Part shown: positions 461 through 61,369 of the stretch, one piece after another
Layout: each line of letters begins with the position of its first letter
Numbering within the stretch: position 1 is the stretch's first letter
Assembly (NCBI RefSeq): GCF_003858635.1
Contig: NZ_RQJO01000009.1
Location: 372,001 to 436,000, forward strand
Direction: 5' to 3'
Source: Larkinella rosea
Lineage (GTDB): Bacteria > Bacteroidota > Bacteroidia > Cytophagales > Spirosomataceae
DNA: 64,000 bases
Notes under the pieces: model-generated
The model's input: the letters and a program-made list of their open reading frames with translations, nothing else
What the model was told of the DNA's origin: nothing
The model's database searches: none
Program-made: the position numbers and the translations under genes

Positions 461-539
461 GAATGACGAATGGTGGATGATGAACGAGGAATGAAGGTGT
501 CAACCATGCATCCTGCATCATTCATAACTCATAACTTTG
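461..539. repeat. Imperfect wordy hairpin A (ATGAATGATG-type word)
   Basis: Left arm 461-497 repeats GAATGA/GGATGATGAA words; right arm 508-539 reads CATCATTCATAACTCATAAC. Their complementarity is clear only for about 15 bases. It lies in the divergent spacer between the minus-strand membrane gene and sucD, just upstream of the sucD promoter. Its vocabulary resembles the repeats at 32452, 47259 and 61328. Confidence 0.5.
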
Positions 540-566
540 TTCTTTAGCCATTTCGCTCTACTTTTG
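537..566 (+). promoter_or_regulatory. Candidate promoter of sucD (TTG-N19-TACTTTTG)
   Basis: TTG at 537-539 and TACTTTTG at 559-566 are separated by 19 bases, matching the Bacteroidota primary sigma consensus TTG-N(17-23)-TAnnTTTG. The -7 box lies 54 bases before the sucD ATG. Confidence 0.7.
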
Positions 567-620
567 CGCCGGTTCCAAAGGCTTATACCTTCACACGCAT
601 AGCACAGCTTTTCATTCATC

Positions 621-1499
621 ATGAGCGTATTAGTTAACAAGAATTCCAAAGTTATCGTACAGGGCTTTACGGGCTCTGAAGGTTCATTTCATGCGCAGCA
701 GATGATCGAGTATGGTACCAACCTCGTTGGCGGAGTAACGCCGGGCAAGGGCGGACAAACCCATCTCGACCGCCCTGTTTTCAATACCGTGAAGGAGGCT
801 GTTGAAAAGGCCGGGGCTGATGTCTCGATTATCTTTGTACCACCGGCTTTTGCCGCTGATGCCATCATGGAAGCCGCAGACGCCGGTATTAAGGTGATTA
901 TCTGTATCACGGAGGGAATTCCGACGAAGGATATGATGGTTGCGAAAGAATATCTGACCGGTAAAGACGTTCGGCTGATCGGACCCAACTGCCCCGGTGT
1001 GATGACCGCCGAAGAATGTAAAGTCGGGATCATGCCCGGTTTTATCTTCAAGAAAGGCACCATCGGCATCGTTTCCAAATCCGGTACGCTGACCTACGAA
1101 GCCGTCGATCAGCTTTCCAAAGTCGGACTGGGACAGACCACCGCCATCGGTATTGGCGGGGACCCGATCATTGGCACAACGACCAAAGAAGCCGTTGAGT
1201 TGCTGATGAATGACCCCGAAACCGAAGGCATTGTCATGATTGGCGAAATCGGTGGGGGCATGGAAGCCGAAGCCGCCCGCTGGATTAAAGCCGACGGCAA
1301 TAAAAAACCGGTTGTTGGATTCATCGCCGGTCAAACCGCTCCCAAAGGACGCCGGATGGGCCATGCCGGAGCCATCATCGGTGGCGCGGACGATACGGCA
1401 GCCGCCAAAATGCGCATCATGGCCGAATGCGGCATTCACGTCGTCGAATCACCCGCTCTCATTGGTGAAACGATGTTGAAAGCTTTAGGAAAGAATTGA
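621..1499 (+). CDS. sucD: Succinate-CoA ligase, alpha subunit
   Basis: 292 residues, the normal length for SucD. With the beta subunit SucC it makes succinyl-CoA synthetase, converting succinyl-CoA to succinate with substrate-level phosphorylation in the TCA cycle. The CoA-binding Rossmann domain opens with [24 protein letters not shown] is at 121-126. The ligase domain carries [13 protein letters not shown], whose His248 is the expected phosphohistidine. sucC is not adjacent; in Bacteroidota the two genes are often unlinked. The ATG at 621 has a good promoter 54-84 bases upstream. The protein is cytoplasmic. Nothing suggests inactivation. Confidence 0.96.
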
Positions 1500-1588
1500 T
1501 AGTTAAGAGTTAAGAGTTAAGAATTAAGAGTTAATGCGTCGTCAGCCAAACTCTTACCTCTTACCTCTTAACTCATAATTCCTAACTC
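1500..1588. repeat. Imperfect wordy hairpin B (TTAAGAG word)
   Basis: Left arm 1500-1534 is four drifting copies of AGTTAAGAGTTAAG; right arm 1549-1588 is drifting AACTCTTACCTC copies. The arms are complementary over roughly 30 bases around a 14-base loop. The element fills the whole sucD-DUF4271 spacer. Confidence 0.85.
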
Positions 1589-2749
1589 GTGCGGATTCGT
1601 TTTATTTTGTCCACATTGGCATTGGCACTGTGGGTGGTCGGAGGTTTTGCGCAGGGCGTTGGGCCGAATCAACAGTTTTTTCCCGTCCACGATTTCCGCA
1701 ACGACTGGCTGGTTTATGACCAGGCTTACAAATCCTACGTGCCTTTTATCGACGAGCAGCACGAGCTGGTCCCTTCCGTTAGTTTTTTCCTGGATATTGA
1801 AAGCAATCGGCGGTATTCGCTCCTGATTTCGACCCGGCAGGACGGGTTTCTCTTTATAGATGCGGCCCTGATGCGCAAACTGACCGCAAACGAGTGGCTG
1901 GTGCTGAATCTGGACAGTTTATACCGTGCGTACCGCAAACCCGAGTTATTCCTGACGCTCCACGGAAGTCCCGGTGTCGATGACAAAATGGTATTCATCG
2001 GCCACCGGAAATCAACAACCCAGAAAAACGTGATTGTAACCGACACCCGGCTGAGTATTCTGCCGCGTCGCCTGTCGGTTTACACCGATTTCTTCACCCT
2101 GTGTTTGCTGTTTATCGTTGCCATCAACGCCTATTTATTCAACTTTCATCACCGCGCCTTTCTCCGGTTTTTCAACCTGGCCGATCTGTTATCAGTAACG
2201 GTTCGGGACGAATTATTCCTGGTAAACCGCCCCCTGAGCCGAACGAATCTGCTTTTTTTAATGAACCAGAGCTTCATTACGGCTTATTTATACCTGATTA
2301 TTCAGAGTAAAAATATCGATCTTTTTCTGTCGAGGGCGCTGTTGTTGCGGGGGCAGGGGTTGCTGGATCTGACCCTTACGTTTTTCGAACTGAGTGGGCT
2401 GGCGTTTTCGCTGCTCCTGGCAAAATATCTTTTTATCGTGACGATTGGCGGCCTATACCGGCTGGAGGAGATTGTTAATTTGCACTACTTCAAGGCCATG
2501 CAGTCGTCGCTGTTCTTCTTTACGGTGGGTGCCATCTGCGTAGCGGCCATTGCCGCCAATACGCCAACCACCAGCACCTGGCCCAGTATGTGGCTCATTG
2601 TTCCCTTTGTGGGTTTCTACGTGATCCGGCTGGCGCTGTTATATGTTGTCATTGCCAACAAAGCCATTGTCAAAAATCTGTATTTATTTTCGTACCTTTG
2701 CATCGTTGAATTGATACCGCTAACCATTGGGGTACGGTTCGCCCTATAA
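1589..2749 (+). CDS. DUF4271-type integral membrane protein
   Basis: 386 residues if started at the GTG of 1589, which directly follows repeat B; no earlier start fits. An N-terminal signal/TM segment (RIRFILSTLALALWVVGGFAQG) leads into a ~150-residue periplasmic region. At least six hydrophobic helices follow, from about residue 165 (FFTLCLLFIVAINAYLF) to the C-terminus. This architecture and its position just before hemD match the DUF4271 family that accompanies uroporphyrinogen-III synthase in many Bacteroidota. The function is unknown; the linkage to hemD and the type IX secretion genes is conserved but unexplained. The gap to hemD is 39 bases. Confidence 0.72.
   Translation: MRIRFILSTLALALWVVGGFAQGVGPNQQFFPVHDFRNDWLVYDQAYKSYVPFIDEQHELVPSVSFFLDIESNRRYSLLISTRQDGFLFIDAALMRKLTANEWLVLNLDSLYRAYRKPELFLTLHGSPGVDDKMVFIGHRKSTTQKNVIVTDTRLSILPRRLSVYTDFFTLCLLFIVAINAYLFNFHHRAFLRFFNLADLLSVTVRDELFLVNRPLSRTNLLFLMNQSFITAYLYLIIQSKNIDLFLSRALLLRGQGLLDLTLTFFELSGLAFSLLLAKYLFIVTIGGLYRLEEIVNLHYFKAMQSSLFFFTVGAICVAAIAANTPTTSTWPSMWLIVPFVGFYVIRLALLYVVIANKAIVKNLYLFSYLCIVELIPLTIGVRFAL
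2667..2700 (+). promoter_or_regulatory. Candidate internal promoter for hemD (TTG-N23-TACCTTTG)
   Basis: TTG at 2667-2669 and TACCTTTG at 2693-2700 lie inside the 3' end of the DUF4271 gene, 88 bases before the hemD ATG. The spacing is at the long end of the Bacteroidota range. Confidence 0.45.
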
Positions 2750-2788
2750 CCTTTGGGCACGCTCTAAACACAAAACGCGAGTTATTCG

Positions 2789-3571
2789 ATGAGTGAGATT
2801 TCTGCTAAGTACGACCAGGAACGACTGACCAAAGTGGCTAGCATCTTAGTTACTCAAGCCCGCCCTGCCGACAACAATTCACCTTATTTTCAGATTGCCA
2901 GTAAGTACAATCTGAAAATTGATTTCCGGCCCTTTATTGAGATTCAGGGTGTTTCGTATAAAGACTTTCGGAAGCAGAAAATAAACATTCTGGAGCATAC
3001 GGCTATTATTTTCACCAGCCGTAACGCGGTCGACCACTTTTTCCGGATCTGTCAGGAAGCCAAAATGGAGATGCCGGCCGATATGAAATATTTCTGCGTG
3101 ACGGAGCAAACCGCCAACTACCTGCAGAAATACATCGTCATTCGGAAACGGAAAATCTTCACGGGAAACAAAACCGCTGCCGATTTGTTCGATCTGATCC
3201 GGAAGCATAAGAGTGAGAAGTTTCTGTTTCCATGCTCCAACATCCGGGGGAACGACATTCCGGATTTTATGGATACCAGCGGTTTGCACCTGTCCGAAGC
3301 CGTGATGTACGAAACCGTTCCATCGGATTTATCCGATCTGGACGTCCAGTCGTTCGATATAATCGCCTTTTTCAGCCCGTCCGGTGTCAATTCTCTGTTG
3401 CATAATTTCCCGGAATTTACGCAAAACGAAATCCGGATGGCGGCTTTTGGCCCCACCACGGCGCGGGCGGTTACCGAAGCCGGATTTCTGCTCGACATCG
3501 AAGCTCCTTTGCCCAATGCTCCCTCGATGGCGGGTGCACTGGAACTCTATATAAAGAAGGCCAATAGCTGA
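2789..3571 (+). CDS. hemD: Uroporphyrinogen-III synthase
   Basis: 260 residues, typical of HemD. It closes and inverts the D ring of hydroxymethylbilane to give uroporphyrinogen III in tetrapyrrole synthesis; cytoplasmic. Family landmarks are IFTSRNAVDHFFRI near residues 71-84, the domain-linker region around CVTEQTANYLQKY, and SPSGVNSLL followed by AAFGPTTARAVTEAGF in the second half. HemD is poorly conserved in sequence, but these motifs and the DUF4271 neighbour agree. Other haem genes are absent, so hemD stands apart here. A 17-base inverted repeat lies just downstream. Confidence 0.9.
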   Translation: MSEISAKYDQERLTKVASILVTQARPADNNSPYFQIASKYNLKIDFRPFIEIQGVSYKDFRKQKINILEHTAIIFTSRNAVDHFFRICQEAKMEMPADMKYFCVTEQTANYLQKYIVIRKRKIFTGNKTAADLFDLIRKHKSEKFLFPCSNIRGNDIPDFMDTSGLHLSEAVMYETVPSDLSDLDVQSFDIIAFFSPSGVNSLLHNFPEFTQNEIRMAAFGPTTARAVTEAGFLLDIEAPLPNAPSMAGALELYIKKANS

Positions 3572-3584
3572 TTTTTTTGCGTGC

Positions 3585-3657
3585 CGATTGCGCTGATTGA
3601 ATGAGTAAAGACCCTGATTTCGCAGGAAACCGGTCGATCGTTCAACCAGCGCAATCG
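3585..3657. repeat. Long inverted repeat downstream of hemD
   Basis: CGATTGCGCTGATTGAA at 3585-3601 pairs with TTCAACCAGCGCAATCG at 3641-3657, 16 of 17 positions, around a 39-base loop. It begins 14 bases after the hemD stop and lacks a U-run, so it is not a standard terminator. The rest of the 237-base hemD-porP spacer holds no gene I can support. Confidence 0.7.
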
Positions 3658-3808
3658 TTGTTTGAGCCCATCGCTTTTTTTATACCAATATTTTTGGAAA
3701 ATCTCCGTTTAATAGGTAACATGCCGCTTAAGCAGGTTTGCCGGTCGAACGATAAGGTCGACGGGCGCTCGGAAATTGATCTGGTGATTGCTCTTTTAGT
3801 ATTAGTAT

Positions 3809-11662: not shown

Positions 11663-11673
11663 TTTTTTGGATG

Positions 11674-11745
11674 GGAACGCGGATGTAAGGGATTTAACGG
11701 ATTTTTACGGATAAAATCAGTTTTAATCTGTTCAATCCGTGTTCC
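11674..11745. repeat. Imperfect wordy hairpin (ACGGATT word) between glycerate kinase and uvrC
   Basis: Left part GGAACGCGGATGTAAGGGAT with further drifting ACGGATTT copies to 11714; right arm 11721-11745. The reverse complement of the right arm begins GGAACACGGATTGAACAGAT. It fills the spacer between two co-directional genes and overlaps the end of the kinase gene. Confidence 0.7.
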
Positions 11746-12859
11746 TGTTTAACAACCGAAGGACATTAAAAGTTGTCTGACGGACTGCTTCGTATGCATT
11801 GGACAGGGCTTCGTCGAGCGACTGGGGATGAGTCAGGACAGAAAACGCAGCCGTTAAGCCAATGGCGGTAATATCGTGCGGTTTTGCGTCTAATGTTCCG
11901 CAGAGCGCAACTGTCGGTACGCCGGATTTTTTGGCTTCCAGCGCAATACCGTTAATGAGTTTACCCTGCAACGTCTGATTGTCAATTTTTCCCTCGCCAG
12001 TCAGAACCAGATCCGCATCGTACAGATGATCTGCAAATTGGGTTTGCTCCATGACCATCTTGACGCCTTCTTTCAATGTTGCGTTCAGGAAAAACAAGGC
12101 CCCGGCCCCCAGCCCCCCCGCAGCTCCGGCACCCGGCACATCGGCCAGATCGACGCCAAACTGACTCTGAATGAGTTGGGCCAGATGACGAAGCCCCTGA
12201 TCCAGCTTTTCGATGTTTTCGGCAGAAGCCCCTTTCTGTGGTCCGTAAACAAAAGCCGCCCCATTGGCACCAAAAAGCGGATTGGTCACATCACAGGCAA
12301 CGTCAACGGTTAAACGCAGGGGCGAAGTGGGTGGAATAATCCGACGGATTTGGGAGAGATTTTCACCAGTAGCATCCACTGGCTCATCCTGATCATTCAG
12401 AAATTGCCAGCCCAACGCGGCTGCCATCCCGATTCCGGCGTCGTTAGTCGCACTGCCGCCAATCCCGAGAACAAGGTTACTAACGTTCCGACTCAGCGCA
12501 TCCTGAATCAGCTGACCGGTTCCGAACGTGCTTGCTTTCAGGGGATCGTATTCATGCCGGTGTAATAACCGCAATCCCGACGCCTGGGACATTTCGATAA
12601 AAGCCGTCTGCTTATTGGCCGAAATACCGTACGAAGCCTGAACAGGGCGTCCCAGTGGGTCGAGGACGGGAATGGTTACCCATTCGCCACCGGTAGCCAG
12701 TGTCAGAACTTCCGCTGTTCCTTCACCGCCGTCCGCCATTGGCAATGCCACAATTTCGGCGTCGGGATGCGCCAGCCGGATGCCTTCCGACATGGCGTCG
12801 CAAACCTGTCGGGCTGTCAGGGAACCTTTGAATTTATCGGGAGCCAGCAGAATTTTCAT
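11732..12859 (-). CDS. Glycerate kinase (GarK/GlxK family)
   Basis: 375 residues starting at MKILLAPDKFKGSLTA, the family's N-terminus. The frame runs 13 codons further upstream, but that extension is translated from hairpin C and should be dropped. It phosphorylates D-glycerate, usually to 2-phosphoglycerate, feeding glyoxylate or tartronate products into glycolysis. Conserved blocks are IVALPMADGGEGTAEVL, GIGGSATNDAGIGMAAALGW, PGAGAAGGLGAGALFF and LVLTGEGKIDNQTLQGK. No glyoxylate genes are adjacent, so the physiological route is open. GarK and GlxK cannot be told apart here. Confidence 0.93.
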   Translation of the reverse strand: MKILLAPDKFKGSLTARQVCDAMSEGIRLAHPDAEIVALPMADGGEGTAEVLTLATGGEWVTIPVLDPLGRPVQASYGISANKQTAFIEMSQASGLRLLHRHEYDPLKASTFGTGQLIQDALSRNVSNLVLGIGGSATNDAGIGMAAALGWQFLNDQDEPVDATGENLSQIRRIIPPTSPLRLTVDVACDVTNPLFGANGAAFVYGPQKGASAENIEKLDQGLRHLAQLIQSQFGVDLADVPGAGAAGGLGAGALFFLNATLKEGVKMVMEQTQFADHLYDADLVLTGEGKIDNQTLQGKLINGIALEAKKSGVPTVALCGTLDAKPHDITAIGLTAAFSVLTHPQSLDEALSNAYEAVRQTTFNVLRLLNRNTD

Positions 12860-12866: not shown

Positions 12867-12971
12867 AGTAAAGATGTGAGACAAGAGACGTGAGACAAAA
12901 GAATTGAAAAACTGAATAACCCGCGCGTCTCACCTCTCTTGTCTCACATCTAACGTCTCATTCATCAATTC
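12867..12971. repeat. Imperfect wordy hairpin C (GTCTCAC word)
   Basis: Left arm 12867-12906 contains AGATGTGAGACAAGAGACGT; right arm 12926-12971 is its near-perfect complement, about 27 of 29 pairs in the core. It lies between the PBP and glycerate kinase genes, both minus strand, and it generates the false N-terminal extension of the kinase. Confidence 0.9.
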
Positions 12972-19484: not shown

Positions 19485-19802
<318 letters not shown>

Positions 19803-19956: not shown

Positions 19957-20451
19957 ATGGATCTGCTGATTCCTGACATTGGGTTGTTATTCTGGATGGT
20001 GCTCGTTTTCGGGCTGCTGTATTTCATCCTGTCAAAATTTGCCTGGAAACCAATTACGGAAAGTCTGAAAGAACGGGAAGACGATATCCAGAAAGCCCTG
20101 GATATGGCCGAAAAAACCCGGATCGAAATGGCCAAGCTGCAATCGGATAACCAGAAACTGCTGGCCGAAGCCCGCGCCGAACGCGATGCCATTTTGCGGG
20201 GCGCCAAAGAAACCGCCGATCGCGTTATTGCCGAAGCCCGCGATAAAGCGAGCGAAGAAGGTAATCGCATTATTGTGAAAGCCCGCGAAGAATTGCAGAC
20301 CGAGCGTCAGGCTATGGTGGCCGAAGTAAAACGTGAAGTGATCGAATTGTCGCTCGACATTGCCGAAAAGGTACTGAAAAGAGAATTGAGCGATAAAAAA
20401 TCACAGGAAGAATTGGTTAAAGGTCTGGTAGCAGAAGCACGATTAAATTAA
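19957..20451 (+). CDS. atpF: ATP synthase subunit b
   Basis: 164 residues. One N-terminal TM helix (LIPDIGLLFWMVLVFGLLYFIL, ~3-26) precedes a long charged coiled coil (LKEREDDIQKALDMAEKTRIEM through AMVAEVKREVIELSLDIAEKVL). It forms the peripheral stalk as a dimer and contacts subunit delta. The end DKKSQEELVKGLVAEA is the usual delta-binding C-terminus. Repeat D separates it from atpH. Confidence 0.95.
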   Translation: MDLLIPDIGLLFWMVLVFGLLYFILSKFAWKPITESLKEREDDIQKALDMAEKTRIEMAKLQSDNQKLLAEARAERDAILRGAKETADRVIAEARDKASEEGNRIIVKAREELQTERQAMVAEVKREVIELSLDIAEKVLKRELSDKKSQEELVKGLVAEARLN

Positions 20452-20508
20452 GAATTAAGCGTTAAAAGTGGGCTGACGCATGTAACTCTTAACGCTTAAT
20501 TCATCACT
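20447..20508. repeat. Imperfect wordy hairpin D (TTAAGAATTAAGC word) between atpF and atpH
   Basis: Left arm 20447-20468, 14-base loop, right arm 20483-20508. The core GAATTAAGCGTTAA is perfectly matched. It shares its word family with hairpin B and half-element G. It starts inside the atpF stop region and lies within what must be one ATP synthase transcript. Confidence 0.8.
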
Positions 20509-21056: not shown

Positions 21057-21139
21057 AGAAGACAAGAGAGGATAGACGAGAGACATCAGACTTGTCGAAT
21101 GGAATGTCTTTCATCTCATGTCTCTTCTCTTTCTTCTTC
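21057..21139. repeat. Imperfect wordy hairpin E (GAGAGACAT word)
   Basis: Left arm 21057-21091 of GACAAGAGAGG/GACGAGAGACAT words; right arm 21106-21139 of CATGTCTCTTCTC words. The arms are complementary over about 30 bases with a few mismatches. It lies just before the atpH terminator and shares words with C and F. Confidence 0.8.
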
Positions 21140-21140
21140 A

Positions 21141-21183
21141 AAAAAACCGGACATCCGAGCGCTGCTCAGATGTCCGGTTTTTT
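21141..21183 (+). terminator. Terminator after atpH
   Basis: A-run then CCGGACATC, inner stem CGAGC/GCTC, GATGTCCGG and T6. It ends the ATP synthase transcript. Confidence 0.9.
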
Positions 21184-26700: not shown

Positions 26701-29169
26701 ATGAATCTACGAATTGTTTCATTTCGGCGTTTGGGCGGAATGGTCATTATTCCGGTTTTACTGGCGTTCGGTTTTGCTGCGGATGATTTTCCGACCCGTT
26801 TAATCGATCGGTTTCGGGCGTACCACACCGCTTATCCGAACGAAAAAGTATACGTTCAGACCGACAAACCGTATTATACCGTTGGCGAAACGATCTGGAT
26901 GAAAGGCTACCTTTTTGACGGTCCCGAGCACCTGGCCGATTCGATCAGTAAGGTATTATACGTTGATTTACTGCAAATCGAGAGCCGGAAAGTCGTGGTT
27001 CATCGCATTCTGCGGGCGGAAAACGGTTACGCTGCTGGCGATATTGCCCTGGGCGATTCGCTGGCGGCTGGCGGTTACGTGTTGCGGGCGTATACGGGTT
27101 GGATGCGGAATTTTTCGGAAGATTATTTCTTCACGAAACCGCTCACGATTTTGCACACGGATACGGAACCGGCGCAGGCCGGCAGCAACCAACCCCCGAA
27201 CGTTCGACCCGGCGTGCAGTTTTTTCCGGAAGGCGGCCAACTGGTGAACGGCATCGAAGGGCGAATTGCGTTCAAAACCGTGAGTCCGTCGGGAAAAGGG
27301 TTGATGACCTCCGGTTTTGTAATGAGTTCGGCGGGCGACACCGTCTCCGGGTTTTCGACCAAACACCTGGGCATGGGTTTTTTTTCCATAACGCCGGAAA
27401 CGGGGCAGCATTACACGGCATACGTGAAACTGGACGATGGCAGCATCCACCCATTTCCGATTCCCGACGCCCGGCCGGAGGGCTACGTTTTGCTGGTCGA
27501 TAACATTACCAACCGGGATAACGTGCGGGTATATATTCGGAACAACAAACCGGCGAGCGTTCAGGGAAAGTTTACGCTAATTACGCAGTCGCGTGGTGTA
27601 AACATTCAGGTTGCGCAGGGCGACGTGAGCAAAAAATCGGTAGTGCTTCAAATTCCCCGAAACCTGTTTCCGGAAGGTATTGCTCAGATTACCCTGTTCG
27701 ACGAAACCAACCAGCCGGTGGGCGAGCGACTGGTTTTTGCCGAACGAAATAACCGCCTGACCGTTCATCTGAAACCGTCGAAACCGGTTTTTAGCCCGCG
27801 CGAAAAGATTCAGATGGATATTGCCGTAACGGATGCGTCCGGAAAACCGGTTCGGACCAATCTCTCACTGGCGGCAACTGATGCCGGACAGGTGCTGGAA
27901 AAGGAACTGTACGCGGCCAATCTGGTTTCGTATCTCCTGCTGAGTTCCGATCTGAAAGGCATTATCGAGCAGCCCGGTTACTATTTCGATCCCGCCAACA
28001 CAGAACGGCTAACGGATCTGGATGTGCTGATGATGACGCAGGGCTGGCGACGATTTGTCTGGAAAGACGTGTTGCAGGACACGTATGCACCGCCGAAGCA
28101 CCTGGTCGAACAGGGACTGGTTTTGGCGGGGAAAGTGGTACGGCCTAACCAGAAAACACCCGGCGTTGTGGCACTGACCTTTATGATGATGCGTCGGGAC
28201 AGCACGCAGAACGTGTTAACGGGTGAGTCGGACGAGAATGGGCAATTTAGTGTCTATGGGCTGGATTTTGGCGATTCGACCCAGATTATGATTCAGGCCG
28301 TGCTGGGCAAGAATAATCGAAATCTGGAAATCTCACTCGAAAACCTTACCAGTCCGACGGTTACATGGACCCAAATACCCTACAATCCGATTGTTTTTCA
28401 GCGCGATGAATTAGCTGATTACCTGAAACGAGCCAAAGAATACCTGGACATTGAACGCCAGATTCGCCGAAACCGGGAGATCACGTTGAAAGAAGTCACG
28501 GTACGTAAGAAAAGAGAAGCACCGACGGATTCCCGGAAAATTTACGGACAAGCCAGCAATACGTTGAAGTTAGACCAAACCATGACGGGCGGTGCGCAAT
28601 CGGTGCTTCAGATTCTCCAGGGCCGGATTCCGGGTGTCAATGTATCGGGTAATCCCATGAGTCCAACCGTTCAGATTCGCGGATCGGCCAATTTCTCGGG
28701 CGTTATCGAACCGCTGTTTACGATCGATGGCGTACCGGTTTCCAAAGATGCGGTTTTGGGTCTTTCGGTCTATGATGTGGATTACATTGATGTACTGAAA
28801 GGTGCCGCAGCCACGATTTTTGGGAGCCGGGCGAGTGGTGGCGTCATTGCTGTGTATACGAAACGCGGAACGACGGATTACGATTACAGCAAAGACAAAG
28901 CGCCGGGCACGCTGGTAGCGACGCTGCCCGGTTTTCAAACTGTCCGCGAGTTTTACGCTCCGAAATACGATGAACCTAAACCGGAGCACGTTCGCCCGGA
29001 TTACCGCCCGACGCTGCACTGGGCGCCCATGATTCAAACCGATGAAACCGGCAAAGCACAGGTTACGTTCTTTGCAACTGATGCCCGCACCACGGTCCAC
29101 GTCGTTGCCGAAGGTGCAACGCCCGGTGGCTCGCCGGGCGTTGGCCGGGCGGTCTTGGAGGTGAAGTAA
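26701..29169 (+). CDS. MG2/TonB-plug protein without a barrel
   Basis: 822 residues from ATG 26701. A signal segment is followed by a macroglobulin MG2-type domain (KVYVQTDKPYYTVGETIWMK at ~45-64). A carboxypeptidase-regulatory-like beta domain lies near 480-545. A complete TonB-receptor plug covers ~620-730 (SVLQILQGRIPGVNVSG, PTVQIRGSANFSG, YIDVLKGAAATIFGSRASGG). No beta barrel follows. Instead the chain ends ~60 residues later in another macroglobulin-like segment (TDETGKAQVTFFATDARTTV). This layout recurs in Bacteroidota, but its function is not known. It may present cargo or signals to a TonB or secretion partner. It lies 146 bases before the SMP-30 gene. Confidence 0.82.
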   Translation: MNLRIVSFRRLGGMVIIPVLLAFGFAADDFPTRLIDRFRAYHTAYPNEKVYVQTDKPYYTVGETIWMKGYLFDGPEHLADSISKVLYVDLLQIESRKVVVHRILRAENGYAAGDIALGDSLAAGGYVLRAYTGWMRNFSEDYFFTKPLTILHTDTEPAQAGSNQPPNVRPGVQFFPEGGQLVNGIEGRIAFKTVSPSGKGLMTSGFVMSSAGDTVSGFSTKHLGMGFFSITPETGQHYTAYVKLDDGSIHPFPIPDARPEGYVLLVDNITNRDNVRVYIRNNKPASVQGKFTLITQSRGVNIQVAQGDVSKKSVVLQIPRNLFPEGIAQITLFDETNQPVGERLVFAERNNRLTVHLKPSKPVFSPREKIQMDIAVTDASGKPVRTNLSLAATDAGQVLEKELYAANLVSYLLLSSDLKGIIEQPGYYFDPANTERLTDLDVLMMTQGWRRFVWKDVLQDTYAPPKHLVEQGLVLAGKVVRPNQKTPGVVALTFMMMRRDSTQNVLTGESDENGQFSVYGLDFGDSTQIMIQAVLGKNNRNLEISLENLTSPTVTWTQIPYNPIVFQRDELADYLKRAKEYLDIERQIRRNREITLKEVTVRKKREAPTDSRKIYGQASNTLKLDQTMTGGAQSVLQILQGRIPGVNVSGNPMSPTVQIRGSANFSGVIEPLFTIDGVPVSKDAVLGLSVYDVDYIDVLKGAAATIFGSRASGGVIAVYTKRGTTDYDYSKDKAPGTLVATLPGFQTVREFYAPKYDEPKPEHVRPDYRPTLHWAPMIQTDETGKAQVTFFATDARTTVHVVAEGATPGGSPGVGRAVLEVK

Positions 29170-29170
29170 T

Positions 29171-29277
29171 GAGGGAGAGTAGAGAAGTTAGACATGAGAT
29201 GAAAGAACAAGCGGCTGACTATTCGGCGGACTTCGTTATTCTCTTGTCTAACCTCTCTCGTCTTATTCATAATTTCG
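29171..29277. repeat. Imperfect wordy hairpin F (TTAGACATGAGAT word)
   Basis: Left arm 29171-29208, right arm 29235-29277. The core AGAAGTTAGACATGAGATG pairs with GTCTAACCTCTCTCG-type words. It is shared in style with C and E and produces a false N-terminal extension of the SMP-30 gene. Confidence 0.8.
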
Positions 29278-30385: not shown

Positions 30386-30425
30386 AACTTTTAATTCTTA
30401 ACTCCTAATTCTTAACTCGTAATCT
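30386..30425 (+). repeat. Half-element G: direct repeat of TAATTCTTAACTC
   Basis: TAATTCTTAACTC occurs at 30392-30404 and 30406-30418, followed by CGTAATCTCG. It uses the same words as hairpin B, but the opposite arm is missing or badly decayed. It abuts the mrdA -7 box. Confidence 0.75.
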
Positions 30426-30428
30426 CGT

Positions 30429-30436
30429 TATATTTG
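30429..30436 (+). promoter_or_regulatory. Candidate -7 box of mrdA (TATATTTG)
   Basis: TATATTTG is an exact TAnnTTTG, 47 bases before the mrdA ATG and immediately downstream of repeat G. No TTG stands at the expected distance. Confidence 0.4.
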
Positions 30437-30483: not shown

Positions 30484-32454
30484 ATGATTGAGAACAGAAA
30501 ATACATTGTTATCGGCGTTTTCTGTCTGGTTGGACTGGTCTATCTGTTGCGGTTGTTTTATCTGCAAATTCTGGATGACAGTTATTCCCTTGAATCGTCG
30601 AGTAATTCCATCAAGCGGATCATCGAAATTCCCTATCGCGGCCAGATTTATGACCGGAGCGGGAAGTTTATTGTCTACAATACACCGGTTTATGATCTGT
30701 ACGTGACGCCCAAAAAGGTGCAGATTGCCGATACAGCTGCTTTTTGCCGGTTAATGGAACTGGAGCGTTCGGAATTTGACAGCATCATGAACAATGCGAA
30801 ATCGTATTCCTACGTAAAACCGTCGTTGTTTCTGCGGCAATTATCCAAAGAAGATTTTGCCCGGATTCAGGATGCGTTGGTCGATTACCGCGGTTTCGAG
30901 CACGTAACGAGTTCGATGCGGACCTATCCGGCCCATACCTTGGCAAATGCGCTGGGTTACGTCAGCGAAATCAGTAAAAAGCAACTGGACGAACAGGAAA
31001 CGCCCTACTACCGGCAGGGCGACTACATTGGCCGAAGCGGTTTGGAGCAGCAGTATGAGTCGGTTTTGCGCGGCCAGCGGGGGGTTAAATTCGTGATGCA
31101 GAATGTGCATCAGGTTGTCAAGGGCTCCTGGAAAAACGGCGCTTTTGATTCGCTGGCGGTTGCGGGCAAAAACCTGTATACGGGCATTGATGTCGAGATT
31201 CAGCAATATGCCGATACGTTGATGCAAAACAAAGTCGGCAGCGTGGTGGCCATCGAGCCATCGACCGGTCAGATTCTGGCAATGGTTTCGGCACCGACCT
31301 ACGATCCGAATTCTTTATCGAGCCGGTTTTTCTCCAAAAGCTACGCGAAACTGGCTAAAAATCCGTATAAACCGCTGATCAACCGTCCGGTGATGGCGAG
31401 TTACCGGCCCGGTTCGACATTTAAGTTGATCCAGGCGATGGTGGCGTTGCAGGATGGCGCAGTGGCACCCAGTTCGATATTTAGTCACGCGGGTTCGCCG
31501 ATGAAATGCCACTGCAATCGCTCGGGTCGTTTAAACCTGGCCGGAGCGGTTCAATATTCCTGCAATCCCTATTTCTACCATGTTTTTCGGCGATTGCTCT
31601 ACAATAACAACGAACGGAATACCTTTAAAGCGTCGGCGATGGGGCTGCACCACTGGCACGATATGGTATCTAAATTCGGAATTGGGCAGAAACTGGGCGT
31701 CGATTTGCCGGGTGAGTTGAAGGGTAGTTTGCCGGATGCGGATTATTACAACCGGATGTATGGCGAAAACCACTGGAAATTTTCGACAGTTTATTCCCTC
31801 AGCATTGGCGAAGGTGAATTGCTGATCAATCCCTTGAAAATGGCGAATGTGGCCGCCATCGTTGCCAACCGGGGCTGGTTTTATACTCCGCATATTGTGA
31901 GCGGTATTGGCAAACCGGGCGAAGGCATTGATCCCAAATACCTTGAAAAACACGAAGTCGGTATCGATCCGCGTCATTTCGAGATCCTTGCCGAGGGAAT
32001 GCAGGGGGCCGTTGAACACGGAACAACCACGATGGCTGCCAACATTCCGGGCATTACCATCTGCGGAAAAACCGGTACGTCGCAAAACAAAAAAGGAAAG
32101 GATCACTCCATTTTTGTCGCCTTCGCTCCACGCGAAAATCCCAAAATTGCCATTGCGGTTTTTGTCGAAAACGCAGGTTGGGGCGGTATTGCTGCCGCTT
32201 CCGTGGCTTCACTGGTGATCGAAAAATACATCAAACGGCGGGTCGACAATCACGCGCTCGACAAGAAAGTGAAGGAGTCCAATTACCTGCCCGCTGTGAC
32301 CTTACCCAAGAAACCCGCTCCTAAAAAGTATGAAATGCCGAAGGATAGTGCGGCAAAACCGCTGATCGTCAAAACGATACCACAGCAGCCGACGCCTGTC
32401 CCGGTGGAACCGAAATCACTGGCATCACGGCCCGTGACCACCAACGGAAATTAA
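30484..32454 (+). CDS. mrdA: Penicillin-binding protein 2 (elongasome transpeptidase)
   Basis: 656 residues from ATG 30484; 13 more in-frame codons upstream are unlikely. One TM helix (YIVIGVFCLVGLVYLLRLFYLQIL) anchors it. The pedestal region contains RGQIYDRSGKFIVYNTPVYDLYV. The transpeptidase carries SxxK in YRPGSTFKLIQ, SxN in YSCNPYFYH and KTG in CGKTGTSQN. PBP2 cross-links lateral wall peptidoglycan with RodA. The C-terminal 60 residues are a Pro/Lys-rich tail. mreB, mreC and mreD are not in the window. It is followed by rodA after 33 bases. Confidence 0.95.
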   Translation: MIENRKYIVIGVFCLVGLVYLLRLFYLQILDDSYSLESSSNSIKRIIEIPYRGQIYDRSGKFIVYNTPVYDLYVTPKKVQIADTAAFCRLMELERSEFDSIMNNAKSYSYVKPSLFLRQLSKEDFARIQDALVDYRGFEHVTSSMRTYPAHTLANALGYVSEISKKQLDEQETPYYRQGDYIGRSGLEQQYESVLRGQRGVKFVMQNVHQVVKGSWKNGAFDSLAVAGKNLYTGIDVEIQQYADTLMQNKVGSVVAIEPSTGQILAMVSAPTYDPNSLSSRFFSKSYAKLAKNPYKPLINRPVMASYRPGSTFKLIQAMVALQDGAVAPSSIFSHAGSPMKCHCNRSGRLNLAGAVQYSCNPYFYHVFRRLLYNNNERNTFKASAMGLHHWHDMVSKFGIGQKLGVDLPGELKGSLPDADYYNRMYGENHWKFSTVYSLSIGEGELLINPLKMANVAAIVANRGWFYTPHIVSGIGKPGEGIDPKYLEKHEVGIDPRHFEILAEGMQGAVEHGTTTMAANIPGITICGKTGTSQNKKGKDHSIFVAFAPRENPKIAIAVFVENAGWGGIAAASVASLVIEKYIKRRVDNHALDKKVKESNYLPAVTLPKKPAPKKYEMPKDSAAKPLIVKTIPQQPTPVPVEPKSLASRPVTTNGN

Positions 32455-32479
32455 TTCATCATTCACCATTCATAATTTA
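32452..32479 (+). repeat. Half-element H (ATTCATCATTCACCATTCAT)
   Basis: Drifting ATTCATCATTCACCATTCAT fills the mrdA-rodA spacer and includes the mrdA stop. Only one arm is visible. Confidence 0.55.
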
Positions 32480-40486: not shown

Positions 40487-40568
40487 GCGGGCGTGGCGAA
40501 ATTGGTAGACGTGCCAGACTTAGGATCTGGTGCCGCAAGGCATGGGGGTTCGAGTCCCTCCGCCCGTA
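40487..40568 (+). tRNA. tRNA-Leu (anticodon UAG)
   Basis: Acceptor GCGGGCG pairs with CGCCCGT with one G-U at the end. The anticodon stem CCAGA/TCTGG encloses loop CTTAGGA, anticodon TAG, reading CUA. A long variable arm (TGCCGCAAGGCA) and T arm GGGGG-TTCGAGT-CCCTC mark a class II Leu tRNA. CCA is not encoded. No other tRNA was found. Confidence 0.93.
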
Positions 40569-40580
40569 CAGTTTAATTGC

Positions 40581-40658
40581 GAATGAGTGAATGAGTGAAT
40601 GAGTGAATGGATCGTTAGCGGTTTTTTCACATTCTCACATTCACTCATTCTTACATTC
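40581..40658. repeat. Imperfect wordy hairpin I (GAATGAGT word)
   Basis: Left arm 40581-40610 is three and a half copies of GAATGAGT; right arm 40625-40658 carries CATTCTCACATTCACTCATT. They pair over about 30 bases with few mismatches. It fills the tRNA-tig spacer and ends 15 bases before the tig GTG. Confidence 0.88.
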
Positions 40659-40672
40659 AAAATTAGTGTATC

Positions 40673-42045: not shown

Positions 42046-42151
42046 AGCGGTCGTCAGACCCTGACAGTGGTTAAGTAGATTAAGCGGTTTATAAATTGCA
42101 AATAGTAGATTCGGGTTTTAGTTGTCACCGCCGTCAGGGTCTTCGACCGCT
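42046..42151. repeat. Inverted repeat J downstream of tig
   Basis: AGCGGTCGTCAGACCCTGAC at 42046-42065 pairs with GTCAGGGTCTTCGACCGCT at 42133-42151, 18-19 pairs with one gap and a 67-base loop. It sits between convergent tig and the XRE gene and is GC-richer than the other hairpins. Confidence 0.8.
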
Positions 42152-42164
42152 GACGGGGTGGGAA

Positions 42165-42563
42165 TTAAAACCCGATTCGGTTTCGGTTCGTGGGTGGAAC
42201 AAAATGGCGGACCACTTCGACCAGCGCCAGATCTTCGGCTTTCCGCTTCCAGTAGGCCACTTCCATCCGGAGCTTTTCAATTTCGAGGTCTTTTCGTTCC
42301 TGTTCCGATTTCAGGGTTTCCGCCTGATGAACGACTTCGGCCGGGTACAGTTCCGGTTGCGGAGGCAGTTCGCCCGAAAGCAGCTGGGGAGCGGTGGTGC
42401 CGAGTGCCGTCGCAATTTGTTGTAAACGCGAAATCGTTAAATCGGTTTTTCCCCGCTCAATGTCACCGTAAGCGGTCGTTGACAGGCCCAGCATATCGGC
42501 CATGTTTTCCTGCGAATAGCCCTTCTTCTGGCGCAGTAAACGAATTTGAGCATTTGTATCCAT
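42165..42563 (-). CDS. XRE-family helix-turn-helix regulator
   Basis: 132 residues. The HTH_3 domain spans ~5-60 (IRLLRQKKGYSQENMADMLG, TTAYGDIERGKTDLTISRLQ). The second half is a coiled coil (VVHQAETLKSEQERKDLEIEKL), probably for oligomerisation. It lies convergent to tig and divergent to clpP. TCAAACC/GGTTTGA half-sites lie just upstream of its start, a possible autoregulatory operator. Target genes are unknown; clpP or other proteolysis genes are candidates by position only. Confidence 0.85.
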   Translation of the reverse strand: MDTNAQIRLLRQKKGYSQENMADMLGLSTTAYGDIERGKTDLTISRLQQIATALGTTAPQLLSGELPPQPELYPAEVVHQAETLKSEQERKDLEIEKLRMEVAYWKRKAEDLALVEVVRHFVPPTNRNRIGF

Positions 42564-43557: not shown

Positions 43558-43623
43558 GAAGACCATTGACCACCGACCATTGACGATTGACAAGGGTCGG
43601 TGGTCAATGGTCTATCGTCAACG
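43558..43623. repeat. Imperfect wordy hairpin K (GACCATTGACCACCGACC)
   Basis: Left arm 43558-43592, right arm 43594-43623. AGACCATTGACCACCGACC is perfectly repeated as its reverse complement in the right arm, and a further GATTGAC copy matches GTCAACG. It overlaps the frame upstream of the haem-binding gene. Confidence 0.92.
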
Positions 43624-47258: not shown

Positions 47259-47354
47259 CAATAAATAATTAATAATGAACAATGAAAAATTAACAATGTA
47301 AAAGCGCTTCAAATCGGGCACATTTGCATTATTAATTTTTCATTTATTTTTTGG
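47259..47354. repeat. Imperfect wordy hairpin L (AATGAAAAATTAACAATG word)
   Basis: Left arm 47259-47304 of ATTAATAATGAACAATGAAA words; right arm 47321-47354. AATGAAAAATTAACAATG pairs with CATTATTAATTTTTCATT, two mismatches. It lies after the second lipoprotein. Confidence 0.88.
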
Positions 47355-47445
47355 CGTAGTTACGGCCTTCGGGTTAGTGGCTACGCCAAACTGTTTTCGG
47401 ACTTTCTGGTTAGTAGAATAGACACACCTTCAATTCAATCATCCG

Positions 47446-53874: not shown

Positions 53875-53945
53875 GAGGTTTACGGTATTCGGTTTACGGT
53901 TTTCGGCGGCCCAACGAAAACCGTAAACCAAATACCACAAAATTG
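53875..53945. repeat. Imperfect wordy hairpin M (GGTTTACGGTATTCGG word)
   Basis: Left arm 53875-53906, right arm 53915-53945. Core GGTATTCGGTTTACGGTTTT is repeated reverse-complemented with one mismatch in 22. It lies in the spacer between two minus-strand genes. Confidence 0.92.
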
Positions 53946-55883: not shown

Positions 55884-55935
55884 TGACCATTTCGTTGTAC
55901 TTTTCTAATTTTTTTACGACAAAACAAAGACCGCT

Positions 55936-57546: not shown

Positions 57547-57638
57547 TTCAGGACGCAATCCGTCGGCCGTTCTTAGCAGAATATTGGACTTTTCTCTCAT
57601 CTTTGCAAATCTGACTGACGAACCGACTGACGTTTCTT

Positions 57639-58523: not shown

Positions 58524-58722
58524 CGGATAAATAAGTTGCGAAAAAAGGGCTTCCCTATACGATAGGTACGGATTTTGCGCATTATCCACAACAGTTTTAT
58601 CGCCCGACCCAATAAAATACCAAAACCGGGCGTTTCAGAGGAGAAGCTTGACGAATGCGGTCAGGTTTCAACCCGATGAATCAGAGGCTCCGGGTTTCCG
58701 GTGCGGTAGTAAGCAAAGAAAC

Positions 58723-59712
58723 ATGAAGAATAACCTACTGATTACCAGTTTGATGGCGGTTGCTGGTTTGGCATTGCAACCGGCCGATGGACAAGCCCAG
58801 AGCCGACGAACTCCTTTTGTACCTTATTCTGAGGTGGGTTTGGGACTGGGAACATCCAGCTATTACGGCGAACTTGCCGGTTACCGTAAACCCATTAAAT
58901 CGACATTTTTGATGATGCGCTGGAGTGCGGCAGCGATGTACACCCGGCATTTTACACCCCGTCTGGCCGCTCGGGCTTCGTTTACCTGGGCGCGGATTGC
59001 GGGGGATGATTATACGTATAACCGCAAAGATCTGAATTCAGGCATCGTTCAATACGTCCGAAACCTGCATTTTCGTAATGATTTGAAAGAATTTGCGCTG
59101 AGCGGTATTTACCAGTTTGTACCGGATGGACGTAACCCGAATTACCGCGCCAAACTGACTCCGTACATCACTGTTGGAATTGCGGCCGTAGCCCACAGTC
59201 CGGAAGCACGCACGCCGGTTGGGTTTGGAACGTCGCCCGAAGATACCCAGCAGCGTTGGGTGAAACTACAGTCGCTGGGCACGGAAGGGCAGGGGCAGAA
59301 CGGCGTTAAACCGTATTCCCTGATGACGTTGGCCATTCCGGTCGGTTTCGGAGTTCGCTACCGGCTAAATGACCGGTTTGGGTTCGCGGGTGAGATTTCA
59401 TACCGCTTTACATCAACGGATTACCTGGACGATGTGGGTGGAGCTTATCCGGACCCGACTATTTTGAAGGATGACCTGGCCCGGGCCATGTCCGATCGTC
59501 GTCTGGAACCAACGGCGGCCCGCAAAGGGGGAGACCGCGTGGCGGATCTGCAAAAATACTTCAACACGAGCGATCCGCTATCAACAATCACCAGTGATCC
59601 CAACTTCACCACGCGGGGAGCCGACGGGGTGTTCAACGATGGCTACATGACCATCAATTTTCAGGTACATTACGTTCTGACGCCACGAATTAAATGCCCG
59701 CCGATCAGATAA
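58723..59712 (+). CDS. DUF6089-type outer-membrane barrel protein, copy 1
   Basis: 329 residues from ATG 58723; an in-frame ATG at 58648 is unlikely. Signal peptide MKNNLLITSLMAVAGLALQ and A-Q-A site lead to a beta-barrel. PYSEVGLGLGTSSYYGELAG and MYTRHFTPRLAARASFTWAR are DUF6089-like. YITVGIAAVAHS and IPVGFGVRYRLNDRFGFAGE are barrel strands. In Bacteroidota this sits beside nadK and before envelope genes such as uppS/bamA, though these are not in view. It overlaps the next gene by 19 bases. Confidence 0.75.
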   Translation: MKNNLLITSLMAVAGLALQPADGQAQSRRTPFVPYSEVGLGLGTSSYYGELAGYRKPIKSTFLMMRWSAAAMYTRHFTPRLAARASFTWARIAGDDYTYNRKDLNSGIVQYVRNLHFRNDLKEFALSGIYQFVPDGRNPNYRAKLTPYITVGIAAVAHSPEARTPVGFGTSPEDTQQRWVKLQSLGTEGQGQNGVKPYSLMTLAIPVGFGVRYRLNDRFGFAGEISYRFTSTDYLDDVGGAYPDPTILKDDLARAMSDRRLEPTAARKGGDRVADLQKYFNTSDPLSTITSDPNFTTRGADGVFNDGYMTINFQVHYVLTPRIKCPPIR

Positions 59713-60455
59713 ATTACCAGTTGTCAGCTTGCTCCGGTCAGCGGTTTTTCCAGCCAAACCGTCAATCTCTTATCCGGTTTTCTGCGGTTTTGGGATTGAT
59801 CGCAGGTTTGTCTATTCTGGGTTGTCCGGCAGTTCAGGCCCAGTCGACCTGGGAAGTGGGTGGTGGTTTAGGCGGCATGGTTTACAAGGGAGATCTGGCG
59901 CCGAGCATTGTGCCCGGAAACCTCCGTCCGGCGGGTAATCTGCTGGTGCGCTACAACGTCAGTCAGCCCTTTACTGTGCGGATTAATGCCGGTTTAGGGC
60001 AGATTGCGGGCCGGGACACCCGGTTTAACGATCCGTTTCAACAGGCCCGTAATCTGGCTTTCAAAACCTCCATTCGGGAGGTAAATGCGCTGCTGGAGTA
60101 TAATTTCCTGAATTATTCCAGCCTTCGCCGGGTGAAGAACTGGACACCCTATGTGTTTGGTGGACTGGGTTTGTTTACGTTTAAAACCAATCCTCAAAAT
60201 CCGGGATACCAGCGGAAATCAGTCTTTCATTTTCCGCTCGGGGTTGGGATCAAATACGAATTTAAACGGCCCTGGAGTTTGGGGCTGGAATACGGTACCC
60301 GGTTTTCCGGTAGCGATTATCTGGATAATTTCGGACCGAACACCTTCGGCGGAACCAACAAGCTGCAGAATGGAAACCCGGATTCCAAAGATACGTATAC
60401 CTATATTGGCGTCCTGCTGACCTACCGGTTTTACCGGATTGTATGCCCTGAGTGA
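59694..60455 (+). CDS. DUF6089-type outer-membrane barrel protein, copy 2
   Basis: 253 residues, starting 19 bases within the end of the previous gene. The signal segment (FSAVLGLIAGLSILGCPAVQAQS) is followed by WEVGGGLGGMVYKGDLAPSI, REVNALLEYNFLNYSSL, WTPYVFGGLGLFTFK and LGLEYGTRFSGSDYLDNFGP, a barrel of the same kind as copy 1 with lower size. A Cys in ILGC could be a lipobox but the QAQ site favours signal peptidase I. Function unknown. A 57-base gap precedes the M23 gene. Confidence 0.78.
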   Translation: MPADQINYQLSACSGQRFFQPNRQSLIRFSAVLGLIAGLSILGCPAVQAQSTWEVGGGLGGMVYKGDLAPSIVPGNLRPAGNLLVRYNVSQPFTVRINAGLGQIAGRDTRFNDPFQQARNLAFKTSIREVNALLEYNFLNYSSLRRVKNWTPYVFGGLGLFTFKTNPQNPGYQRKSVFHFPLGVGIKYEFKRPWSLGLEYGTRFSGSDYLDNFGPNTFGGTNKLQNGNPDSKDTYTYIGVLLTYRFYRIVCPE

Positions 60456-60512
60456 CCATTTTTCGGGAGTTTTCCGTATTTTCGGCCGCAGGATTGAATA
60501 CAGCTCGTCAAC

Positions 60513-61328
60513 GTGAAATCAGGATATTGGAAAGTTATGCGGTGGGTCGGCATCCTAAGTGCTTTATGGATTGGATTGTCAAATTCGGCTTCGTCGCAAA
60601 CCGTTACCTGGACCGGCACCGGCATTCCCCGCATCGACTCGATGTGCCAGCAGTTCCAGCAATTGTATACCCGGATTCGGGAAGAAAGCGTTTTGCCGGA
60701 TTCGGCCCGGAAACAATTTAGCGACATCATGTTTGGGTTGCGGGGTAAATTCCAAACCGCCGAACCCTTCCGGCTCGACAGTGCCCGCCGTGACAGCCTG
60801 CTGCGCTCGGCCTACTTCTCATTTCCACTGCGTAATTACACCCCGGATGCCATTGGCGGCACGCACGGCGAAGGCTACCGCGCCAAAGGCTTCGATTTGT
60901 TTGACTACAACGTCCGGGGAAGTCATCCCGCCCAGGATATTTTCATTACCGACCGAAATCAGGACTGCATCGATGATCATACCGACCGCCCCGCCGATGT
61001 GCTGGCGATGACCAGCGGCATCGTATTAGCCATCGAAACCGCCTGGACTCCGGGGCAGGAGTACCGGGGCGGCAACTGGATTTGGGTGTATGATCCCATT
61101 CTCGATGGGTTGTGGTATTACGCCCATAACAACGCCATTTTAGTTCGGCCGGGCGATTGGGTGCAATCCGGTCAGAAAATCAGTGAAGTTGGACGGACCG
61201 GTTACAATGCCTATCCCGCCCGGTCGCCAACGCATCTGCACCTCATGTACCTGCAACTCCAACCCGACGGACTTCCCCTGCCCCAAAATCCATATGAGTG
61301 GCTCCTGACCGCCCGAAACTTGAACTAG
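60513..61328 (+). CDS. M23-family peptidase (LytM-like), exported
   Basis: 271 residues from GTG 60513; ATG 60537 (residue 9) is also possible. After a signal peptide (VGILSALWIGLSNSASSQ) the Zn peptidase domain has HxxxD at His138/Asp142 (GSHPAQDIFI) and HLH at 241-243 (SPTHLHLMYL). These are the M23/LytM ligands. The fold also has RTGYNAYPARSP. It may cleave peptidoglycan bridges or act on other substrates; the FGxDI-like position reads HPAQDIF. It lies downstream of the DUF6089 pair. Confidence 0.85.
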   Translation: MKSGYWKVMRWVGILSALWIGLSNSASSQTVTWTGTGIPRIDSMCQQFQQLYTRIREESVLPDSARKQFSDIMFGLRGKFQTAEPFRLDSARRDSLLRSAYFSFPLRNYTPDAIGGTHGEGYRAKGFDLFDYNVRGSHPAQDIFITDRNQDCIDDHTDRPADVLAMTSGIVLAIETAWTPGQEYRGGNWIWVYDPILDGLWYYAHNNAILVRPGDWVQSGQKISEVGRTGYNAYPARSPTHLHLMYLQLQPDGLPLPQNPYEWLLTARNLN

Positions 61329-61369
61329 AATGATGAATAAGGGAACGCAATAATTCATAATCCATCATC
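61328..61369. repeat. Short wordy hairpin N after M23 gene
   Basis: GAATGATGAATAA at 61328-61340 is partly complementary to TTCATAATCCATCATC at 61354-61369. Weak but with the same words as A and L. Confidence 0.45.

Follow-up and report, generated by a model that had tools for sequence, protein, structure and literature searches.

How does a spacer keep its hairpin while the sequence of that hairpin changes? The question is raised by a stretch of 64,000 nucleotides (the window; G000:C12:372001-436000) from a Larkinella (Cytophagales) genome of 8.17 Mb, whose closest named relatives are Larkinella terrae, L. punicea, L. humicola and Larkinella sp. C7. An initial annotation had listed 15 loci in the window with intergenic inverted repeats built from tandem, drifting short words, and had proposed that one arm is copied onto the other and that a limited vocabulary of words spreads between loci. 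For comparison with the window we took 80 kb from each of the other eight genomes in a set of nine Larkinella genomes that includes its own, and we analysed a further 400 kb of the same genome (C11) and 477-480 kb from each of three close species (G005, G007 and G002; mutual identity 93.4-93.7% over an 80-kb block). These word hairpins are, in our judgement, probably intergenic DNA elements whose hairpin form is maintained chiefly because one arm is copied onto the other.

Abundance and placement of the hairpins

An ungapped inverted repeat with a score of at least 15 and a loop longer than 6 was present in 9 of the 47 window spacers, 26 of 232 in C11 and 74 of 272 in G005; these counts include families resembling miniature inverted-repeat transposable elements (MITEs) and repetitive extragenic palindromes (REPs) besides the word hairpins. 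With 20 dinucleotide shuffles per spacer, the mean number of shuffled spacers carrying a hairpin was 0, 0 and 0.1, respectively. Seven of the nine hairpins in the window had been on the initial list. Coding sequence, delimited by a simple hexamer script and not by curated annotation, held no hairpin in the window or C11 and two in G005, in keeping with the annotation's statement that the elements lie outside genes.

Its remark that most lack T-runs also held: a T-run following the stem, as expected of an intrinsic terminator, was present in 30 and absent from 243 of the 273 scored long-loop hairpins (MITE and REP types included). Ordinary terminators do occur in some spacers (e.g. 21141-21183), where they adjoin the word hairpins as separate structures. 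Given this and the near absence of hairpins from shuffled spacers, it is extremely unlikely that the elements are plain terminators or chance inverted repeats.

The arms have a regular build, with a period of 7 or 14 fitting best in 116 of 205 arms (arms of at least 20 bases, MITE and REP types excluded), and the median loop length is 20. About ten word classes were distinguished, and arms of different loci are mostly unrelated (median similarity 0.20). Words have a preferred polarity in the 5' arm, the word outnumbering its complement by 47 to 4 for TTAAGAG, 25 to 0 for GACAAGAG, 18 to 2 for GAATGAT and 14 to 4 for GCGGAG, although these tallies are not independent, because orthologues of several species were counted separately.

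In co-directional spacers the elements start a median of 8 nt past the upstream stop codon, and within 20 nt of it in 141 of 198 cases. Divergent spacers are poor in hairpins (8/54 in G005 and 1/50 in C11) beside co-directional (47/174 and 18/147) and convergent ones (19/44 and 7/35). Selection against insertions in genes and promoters would produce this placement; so would selection for an RNA hairpin (an RNase III site, a 3'-end stabiliser or an operon insulator) whose sequence is itself free to vary.

Replacement of words at fixed spacers

A case in the window is the following element; here and below, z is the score from single-strand DNA folding, which was computed at all 15 loci.

1503..1578; arms 1503-1532 and 1549-1578: word hairpin of AGTTAAG heptamers (locus 1500), z -5.4

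Locus 1500 is flanked by a succinyl-CoA ligase-type gene and a DUF4271 gene, and the same spacer held a hairpin in all nine genomes (score 13.5 in G006, at least 19 elsewhere). Its words were AGTTAAG in the window's own genome, G002, G004 and G005, GAATGAT-type in G008, G007, G001 and G003, and a third word, AGGCTGAA, in G006. Thus, the spacer keeps a hairpin while the word changes, with three words among nine species.

We found the same pattern on a larger scale in 227 spacers matched across G005, G007 and G002, in which a hairpin was present in none of the species (144 spacers), one (21), two (31) or all three (31). These spacers yielded 124 orthologous hairpin pairs at 62 loci, and arm similarity fell below 0.5 in 29 pairs at 16 loci. 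Inspected by eye, the 16 spacers comprised eight clear replacements of one word by another, three in which a MITE- or REP-type hairpin stood opposite a word hairpin, and five partial or unclear cases (3846, 19481, 72499, 351039 and 465000). The clear replacements are at:

G005 positions 32301, 334692, 349505, 400244, 431348, 443374, 446908 and 458416: word-to-word replacements

Position 334692 corresponds to locus 1500, and 443374 carries three words in the three species. Among these close species, a new word takes the place of an earlier one where the spacer had a hairpin before.

Words could instead be alleles that homologous recombination in the flanking genes carries from one species to another, and the alternation of the same two main words among species at locus 1500 is in favour of this. 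However, the 300-base flanks at replaced spacers were 94.1% identical (11 comparisons with G005) against 93.9% elsewhere, although donors as close as these species would be invisible in such a comparison, and exchange leaves the origin of the second word unexplained. We therefore consider allele exchange very improbable.

Coupled changes between arms

If arms are copied onto each other, changes should occur on both sides of a pair. Among alignable elements (177 ordered pairs at 62 loci, species pairs being taken in both directions where both passed), 116 base pairs had changed on both sides, from one Watson-Crick pair to another, against 8-13 when the partner was slid by 1-3 bases. Both-sided changes numbered 140 in all, against 22 expected, and 24 of them no longer paired; 384 changes were single-sided. 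Counting each species pair once (85 pairs, 54 loci) left 53 coupled changes at 21 loci and 189 single ones. Transversions and transitions were about equally frequent among both the coupled (27 and 26) and the single changes (90 and 99), so that no path through a wobble pair is needed. Coupling belongs to the word hairpins: counted once, these had 52 coupled changes at 20 loci (74 pairs; 3-6 with slid partners) and 163 single changes, compared with 1 coupled and 26 single changes in the MITE- and REP-type hairpins (11 pairs).

Mismatches within the stems were symmetrical between strands. On the transcript strand of co-directional spacers, G-U and A-C mismatches numbered 119 and 118 (110 and 109 in word hairpins only), and in convergent spacers 43 and 49. 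Hence there is no wobble signature of selection on RNA. Loops were also informative. In the 124 orthologous pairs they were homologous in direct orientation in 28 and homologous but inverted in 12; the inverted loops fell at nine loci, of which two are MITE or REP types and two others have weaker matches. Mirrored insertions were clear at two loci, the better being 406340, at which both arms of the G002 hairpin contain an insert of 16-17 bases.

These results bear on selection for an RNA hairpin, which is supported by the placement described above and by the 31 hairpin spacers common to all three species, against 3.8 expected if species were independent. Common descent can also produce such sharing, however, and RNA selection does not account for the lack of a G-U excess, for coupled transversions as frequent as transitions, for loops inverted between orthologues, or for clean absence at some orthologous spacers (locus 12867 in G004 and G006). 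On balance we regard it as unlikely.

Several observations count against maintenance by copying between arms. Single-sided changes in word hairpins were about three times as frequent as coupled ones, which implies that arm correction is partial and copying occasional. In 57 of 75 word pairs the distance between the two arms of one hairpin was smaller than that between orthologous arms (equal in 9, larger in 9; for MITE and REP types 8 smaller, 2 equal and 3 larger of 13); this speaks for copying, but the comparison is biased because the hairpins were chosen for good pairing. Loops were unrelated or unclassifiable in 84 of the 124 pairs, and 70 further pairs from window spacers added 4 direct and 2 inverted cases, the latter with 7-base loops. 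The two clear mirrored insertions stand against 75 other arm insertions (ordered pairs). The preferred word polarity is not predicted by simple snap-back in either direction, and no donor of a replaced word was identified in the 80 to 480 kb compared per genome. The proposal of arm-templated copying is well supported by coupled changes, the lack of wobble, closer arms, inverted loops and mirrored insertions, in the form of a partial correction; arms drifting independently, the outcome that the initial annotation had named as refuting it, were also observed, side by side with coupling.

Tests for transposition

The next explanation to be weighed is a family of mobile cassettes, resembling MITEs or the REP-derived REPIN hairpins, whose ends are hidden in the words and whose insertion at hot spots, followed by loss, changes the word at a spacer. 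The preferred word polarity is consistent with this, as are elements at unlinked loci that are 87-89% similar over their length with partly related loops (e.g. the AATGTAAAATG family), and an apex, TGGCTGACGC, common to different words in G005, G007 and G002, with another apex, GCTYCGC, in another genus.

A mobile family should, however, show new insertions. In 215 of the three-way spacers (12 longer than 900 bases were dropped), we found no word hairpin private to one species on a clean empty spacer, compared with eight private insertions of MITE or REP types on empty spacers (P = 0.0004, Fisher test; 0.003 on a stricter count; tallies set by hand). Ten cases of presence or absence of a word hairpin had been flagged automatically. 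On reading, two were clean (25498 and 465000), each hairpin being missing in G007 only; in the remainder, traces were left or the element was not a word hairpin. Insertion at new sites among close relatives, as expected of MITEs, was thus not seen for word hairpins. Nor was any constant end sequence seen for them in the aligned spacers. We consider a mobile cassette family quite unlikely to explain the elements.

The proposed spread of a limited vocabulary therefore stood in part: words, apex motifs and some loops are common to unlinked loci, but no word hairpin was newly placed in a clean empty spacer of the three close species.

A link to RAYTs (REP-associated tyrosine transposases) was also considered. 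All nine Larkinella genomes contain matches to RAYT-like Y1 transposases, 28 in total. Among the 15 surroundings that were read, none had a word hairpin within 900 bases of the match, and most had REP-like repeats nearby; a RAYT/REPIN origin for the word hairpins was rejected on these 15. A single palindrome conserved genome-wide, the hallmark of REPs and REPINs, is likewise missing here, the ten or so word classes having mostly unrelated arms.

Some repeats of the more familiar kinds were noted in passing. Most of the RAYT-like Y1 transposase genes (L198-L209; G007:C1:430068 and 715300) lie near REP-like repeats, such as CTACAATATGGGGCATCCCTACGGGA and GTCGCGTTAGCGAC. A MITE-like family with arms CCCCTAAATCCCCTAAAGGGGACTT and a loop of about 25 bases occurs at G005 64957, 152892, 377666 and other positions; it shows clean presence and absence between close species and was found once with its loop inverted. 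In the window's own genome, a family with arms GTACCCACGGACTTTAGTCCGTG, each arm nearly palindromic, occurs at C11 160716, 193864, 266172 and 296833.

Spread of words within and beyond the genus

We searched for the heptamer words with the pattern GARNNAW repeated three times and followed by GA, using the pattern read backwards as a control. Eight of the nine Larkinella genomes had 69-226 matches each and G006 had 0, with 0-10 matches to the backward control. Matches were found in 90 of 150 genomes of the family, in widely differing numbers, and there were other genera in which the backward control matched as often as the pattern itself. A hairpin lay over the match at 13 of 30 family loci fetched. 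In 200 kb of a genome from another genus (G425), 26 of 123 spacers had long-loop hairpins (a count made with no shuffle control) whose words were mostly similar to those of Larkinella; its apex motif is the GCTYCGC mentioned above. The apex motif GGCTGACGC was enriched in three of the Larkinella genomes, its best 7-mers occurring in 14 of 57 elements of G002, 8 of 63 of G005 and 9 of 59 of G007, but was not enriched in the window's own genome and was rejected as a universal signature.

Heptamer word counts differed sharply within genera (221 vs 0 in G425 and G445; 153 vs 4 in G379 and G438), and these contrasts offer a natural comparison for finding the driver of the process.

More distant matches were of another form. 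An exact 21-mer search for TTAAGAG across Bacteroidota matched 5 of 395 genomes, a search that is too strict because words drift. Four loci from other families (L160-L163) were single arrays with no hairpin of score 15. Five plasmid records gave a match. In three of them, from Nostoc, Phaeobacter and Haliovirga (L210-L212), the TTAAGAG-like words form a single array that lacks a partner arm; elsewhere on this Nostoc plasmid, 50 kb of sequence (L213) had one word-like inverted pair, of CAGGAGT words with a loop of 114. A second word searched for in plasmid records gave no match.

How a hairpin may be kept while its word changes

On these data we favour copying from arm to arm in the DNA, partial in extent, together with slippage, loop flips and rare overwriting of whole hairpins. 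The comparisons showed coupled changes, strand-symmetric mismatches, inverted loops, replacement in place with undisturbed flanks and near absence from genes. The steps at the fork and the polymerase we infer. On a strand left unpaired, as may happen at a stalled replication fork, a word arm would fold onto its partner, and a polymerase or inverted-repeat recombination would copy one arm onto the other (quasi-palindrome correction) or flip the loop. Slippage between short direct words would add or remove units, so that the word drifts with both arms partly following. Occasionally a whole hairpin would be overwritten by a different one, so that the word changes at a fixed place; the template for such a replacement may be a second hairpin in the cell or one in a relative.

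A bolder proposal, speculative and in our view doubtful, is that being a hairpin is a heritable state separate from sequence. The hairpin of a spacer could then be overwritten by any other hairpin in the cell, with hairpin ends or cruciforms as the entry point for ectopic copying; words would compete and spread across a set of hairpin loci that stays fixed, with neither a transposase nor new sites, and the same copying chemistry would yield the same vocabulary and kind of apex in other genera.

For template switching between hairpin arms, the word hairpins provide a natural record that spans a bacterial genome, and each genome has many loci at which coupled changes, flips and replacements can be counted. 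They also carry a warning: covariation between arms in spacers, usually taken as evidence of functional RNA, can arise at the DNA level; the word hairpins covary without a wobble signature. Replacement of one hairpin by another, if true, would be a route for the spread of sequence that needs no transposase.

Comparison with known systems

Searches of open-access full text listed no description of genome-wide word hairpins of this kind. In plastid spacers, minute inversions associated with hairpins flip the loop between relatives and keep the stem sequence; the loop flip is alike, but in Larkinella the stem word changes too. Quasi-palindrome correction is known mostly as single mutational events, whereas in Larkinella a whole class of loci with tandem words would be subject to it. 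As PMC6649704 outlines that process, one arm templates the other and imperfect inverted repeats become more perfect; the likeness extends to the word hairpins, where coupled changes exceeded those of independent mutation.

The nearest known case is the P6b stem-loop of the tRNA-Leu(UAA) group I intron of Nostoc, in which classes of seven-base repeats (Class I and Class II) were replaced several times at one locus (PMC4476775). In both systems the arms consist of seven-base repeats, length varies by units, and the class is replaced in place with the stem kept; Larkinella shares the seven-base periodicity and the replacement, the latter at eight spacers including locus 1500. P6b is a single intron locus, whereas in each Larkinella genome the hairpins occupy many spacers, outside any intron, and show loop inversions; in the window they are found either in spacers between called protein genes or behind a tRNA.

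Direct repeats of heptamers, TAACTGA among them, are reported from Beggiatoaceae, cyanobacteria and some Bacteroidetes (PMC4679880). They are described as direct repeats of one heptamer; the 169 sets included one inverted pair, no particular RNA structure was predicted, and Cyanothece arrays had indels in steps of 7 (PMC4679880). These arrays resemble ours in being intergenic and patchy across phyla, but are described without paired arms, which the Larkinella words do form. REPs and REPINs with RAYT transposases are intergenic palindromes that keep their sequence within a family; most REPs carry a GTAG or CGTC tag, and they lie mostly in co-directional or convergent spacers downstream of genes (PMC3733652). 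The placement is similar; the Larkinella arms, however, differ from one locus to the next and show no association with the RAYT-like genes that we examined. A survey published in 2026 was restricted to inverted repeats with perfect arms and spacers of at most eight bases (PMC13155455), and with a median loop of 20 most word hairpins would escape it.

Hairpins of the window

Folding clearly supported 9 of the 15 listed loci (z -2.8 to -10.1), one of which, locus 42046, is a hairpin of another kind. The remaining eight, including locus 1500, are long imperfect inverted repeats with tandem words, as the initial annotation had described. The other seven well-paired members are:

12872..12951; arms 12872-12896 and 12927-12951: word hairpin, GTGAGACAAGAG (locus 12867), z -7.0
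20452..20502; arms 20452-20469 and 20485-20502: word hairpin, GAATTAAG (locus 20447), z -5.4
29163..29276; arms 29163-29207 and 29232-29276: imperfect word hairpin, GAGAAGTTAGACATGAG (locus 29171), z -3.7
40574..40665; arms 40574-40609 and 40630-40665: word hairpin, GAATGAGT octamers (locus 40581), z -6.0
43560..43613; arms 43560-43582 and 43591-43613: word hairpin, GACCATT (locus 43558), z -10.1
47281..47344; arms 47281-47302 and 47323-47344: word hairpin, AATGAAAAATTAAC (locus 47259), z -2.8
53884..53936; arms 53884-53905 and 53915-53936: word hairpin, GGTTTACGGTTTTC (locus 53875), z -4.9

Conservation differed between these loci. Six relatives have a hairpin in the spacer orthologous to 12867. 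The hairpin at 20447, which lies between atpF and atpH and contains GGCTGACGC in its loop, is kept in 7 of 8 relatives and missing in G006. Locus 29171 is left out of the spacer count because its outer arm extends into a called gene. Locus 40581 follows a tRNA (40487-40568) and precedes the trigger factor gene; its orthologues have GAATGAG-type words in G008 and G001 and GAAAGAG-type words in G004 and G003. Locus 43558 follows a ClpP-type protease gene; the three relatives aligned there comprised one with a hairpin (G008) and two without (G004 and G006). At 47259 none of the five aligned relatives has a counterpart, and at 53875 the three aligned relatives have none (G004) or a weak hairpin (G001 and G003).

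The rest of the list was weaker or of another nature:

461..545: GAATGAT-type words on both sides, poorly paired (locus 461), z -0.8
11665..11746: weakly paired member of the ACGCGGAT/AACGGAT family (locus 11674), z -2.0, borderline
21057..21140: GACAAGAG-type words, poorly paired (locus 21057), z -0.9
30386..30430: single arm of TTAACTC words without a partner arm (locus 30386), z +1.4
32454..32478: single arm, ATTCATCATTCACC, without a partner arm (locus 32452), z +0.5
42108-42178: hairpin of another kind, TCGGGTTTTAAT...ATTAAAACCCGA (locus 42046), z -7.4

Four listed loci were therefore weak as hairpins: 11674, and also 461, 21057 and 61328 (z +1.5 at the last), which were no better than shuffles. 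The ACGCGGAT/AACGGAT family accounts for many of the 22-48 matches per genome in six Larkinella genomes, against 5-7 matches each in G001, G003 and G006. Words at 21057 are clear in five relatives (G008, G005, G007, G002 and G004), and the strong hairpin nearby is the separate terminator at 21141-21183. The half elements had been recognised correctly: orthologues of 30386 are single-armed too in 4 of 5 aligned relatives (none in G006), as are those of 32452 in 4 of 4. Reuse of words at unlinked places held for TTAAGAG and GACAAGAG, but locus 47259 has AATGAAC/AATGAAA and not ATTCATAATT.

Locus 42046 lies between convergent genes, for trigger factor (+) and a helix-turn-helix protein (-). Of the five aligned relatives, four retain its stem sequence, and to judge from this it is a different feature from the word hairpins, probably terminator-like. 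Two inverted repeats without clear words, at 3585 and 45634, had been absent from the initial list. An Rfam search of the window at the gathering threshold returned nothing besides the tRNA at 40487-40568.

Two further features of the window were noted:

47350-47400: TTGGCGTAGTTAC...GTGGCTACGCCAA, a conserved inverted repeat on the upstream side of an alpha/beta hydrolase gene
19605-19647: two near-identical 21-base repeats inside a short open reading frame (19485-19802) between ATP synthase genes

The first is recognisable by eye in all five aligned relatives, most weakly in G006, and could be a regulatory element. The reading frame that contains the second is, to judge from gene order, probably that of the small membrane subunit of ATP synthase.

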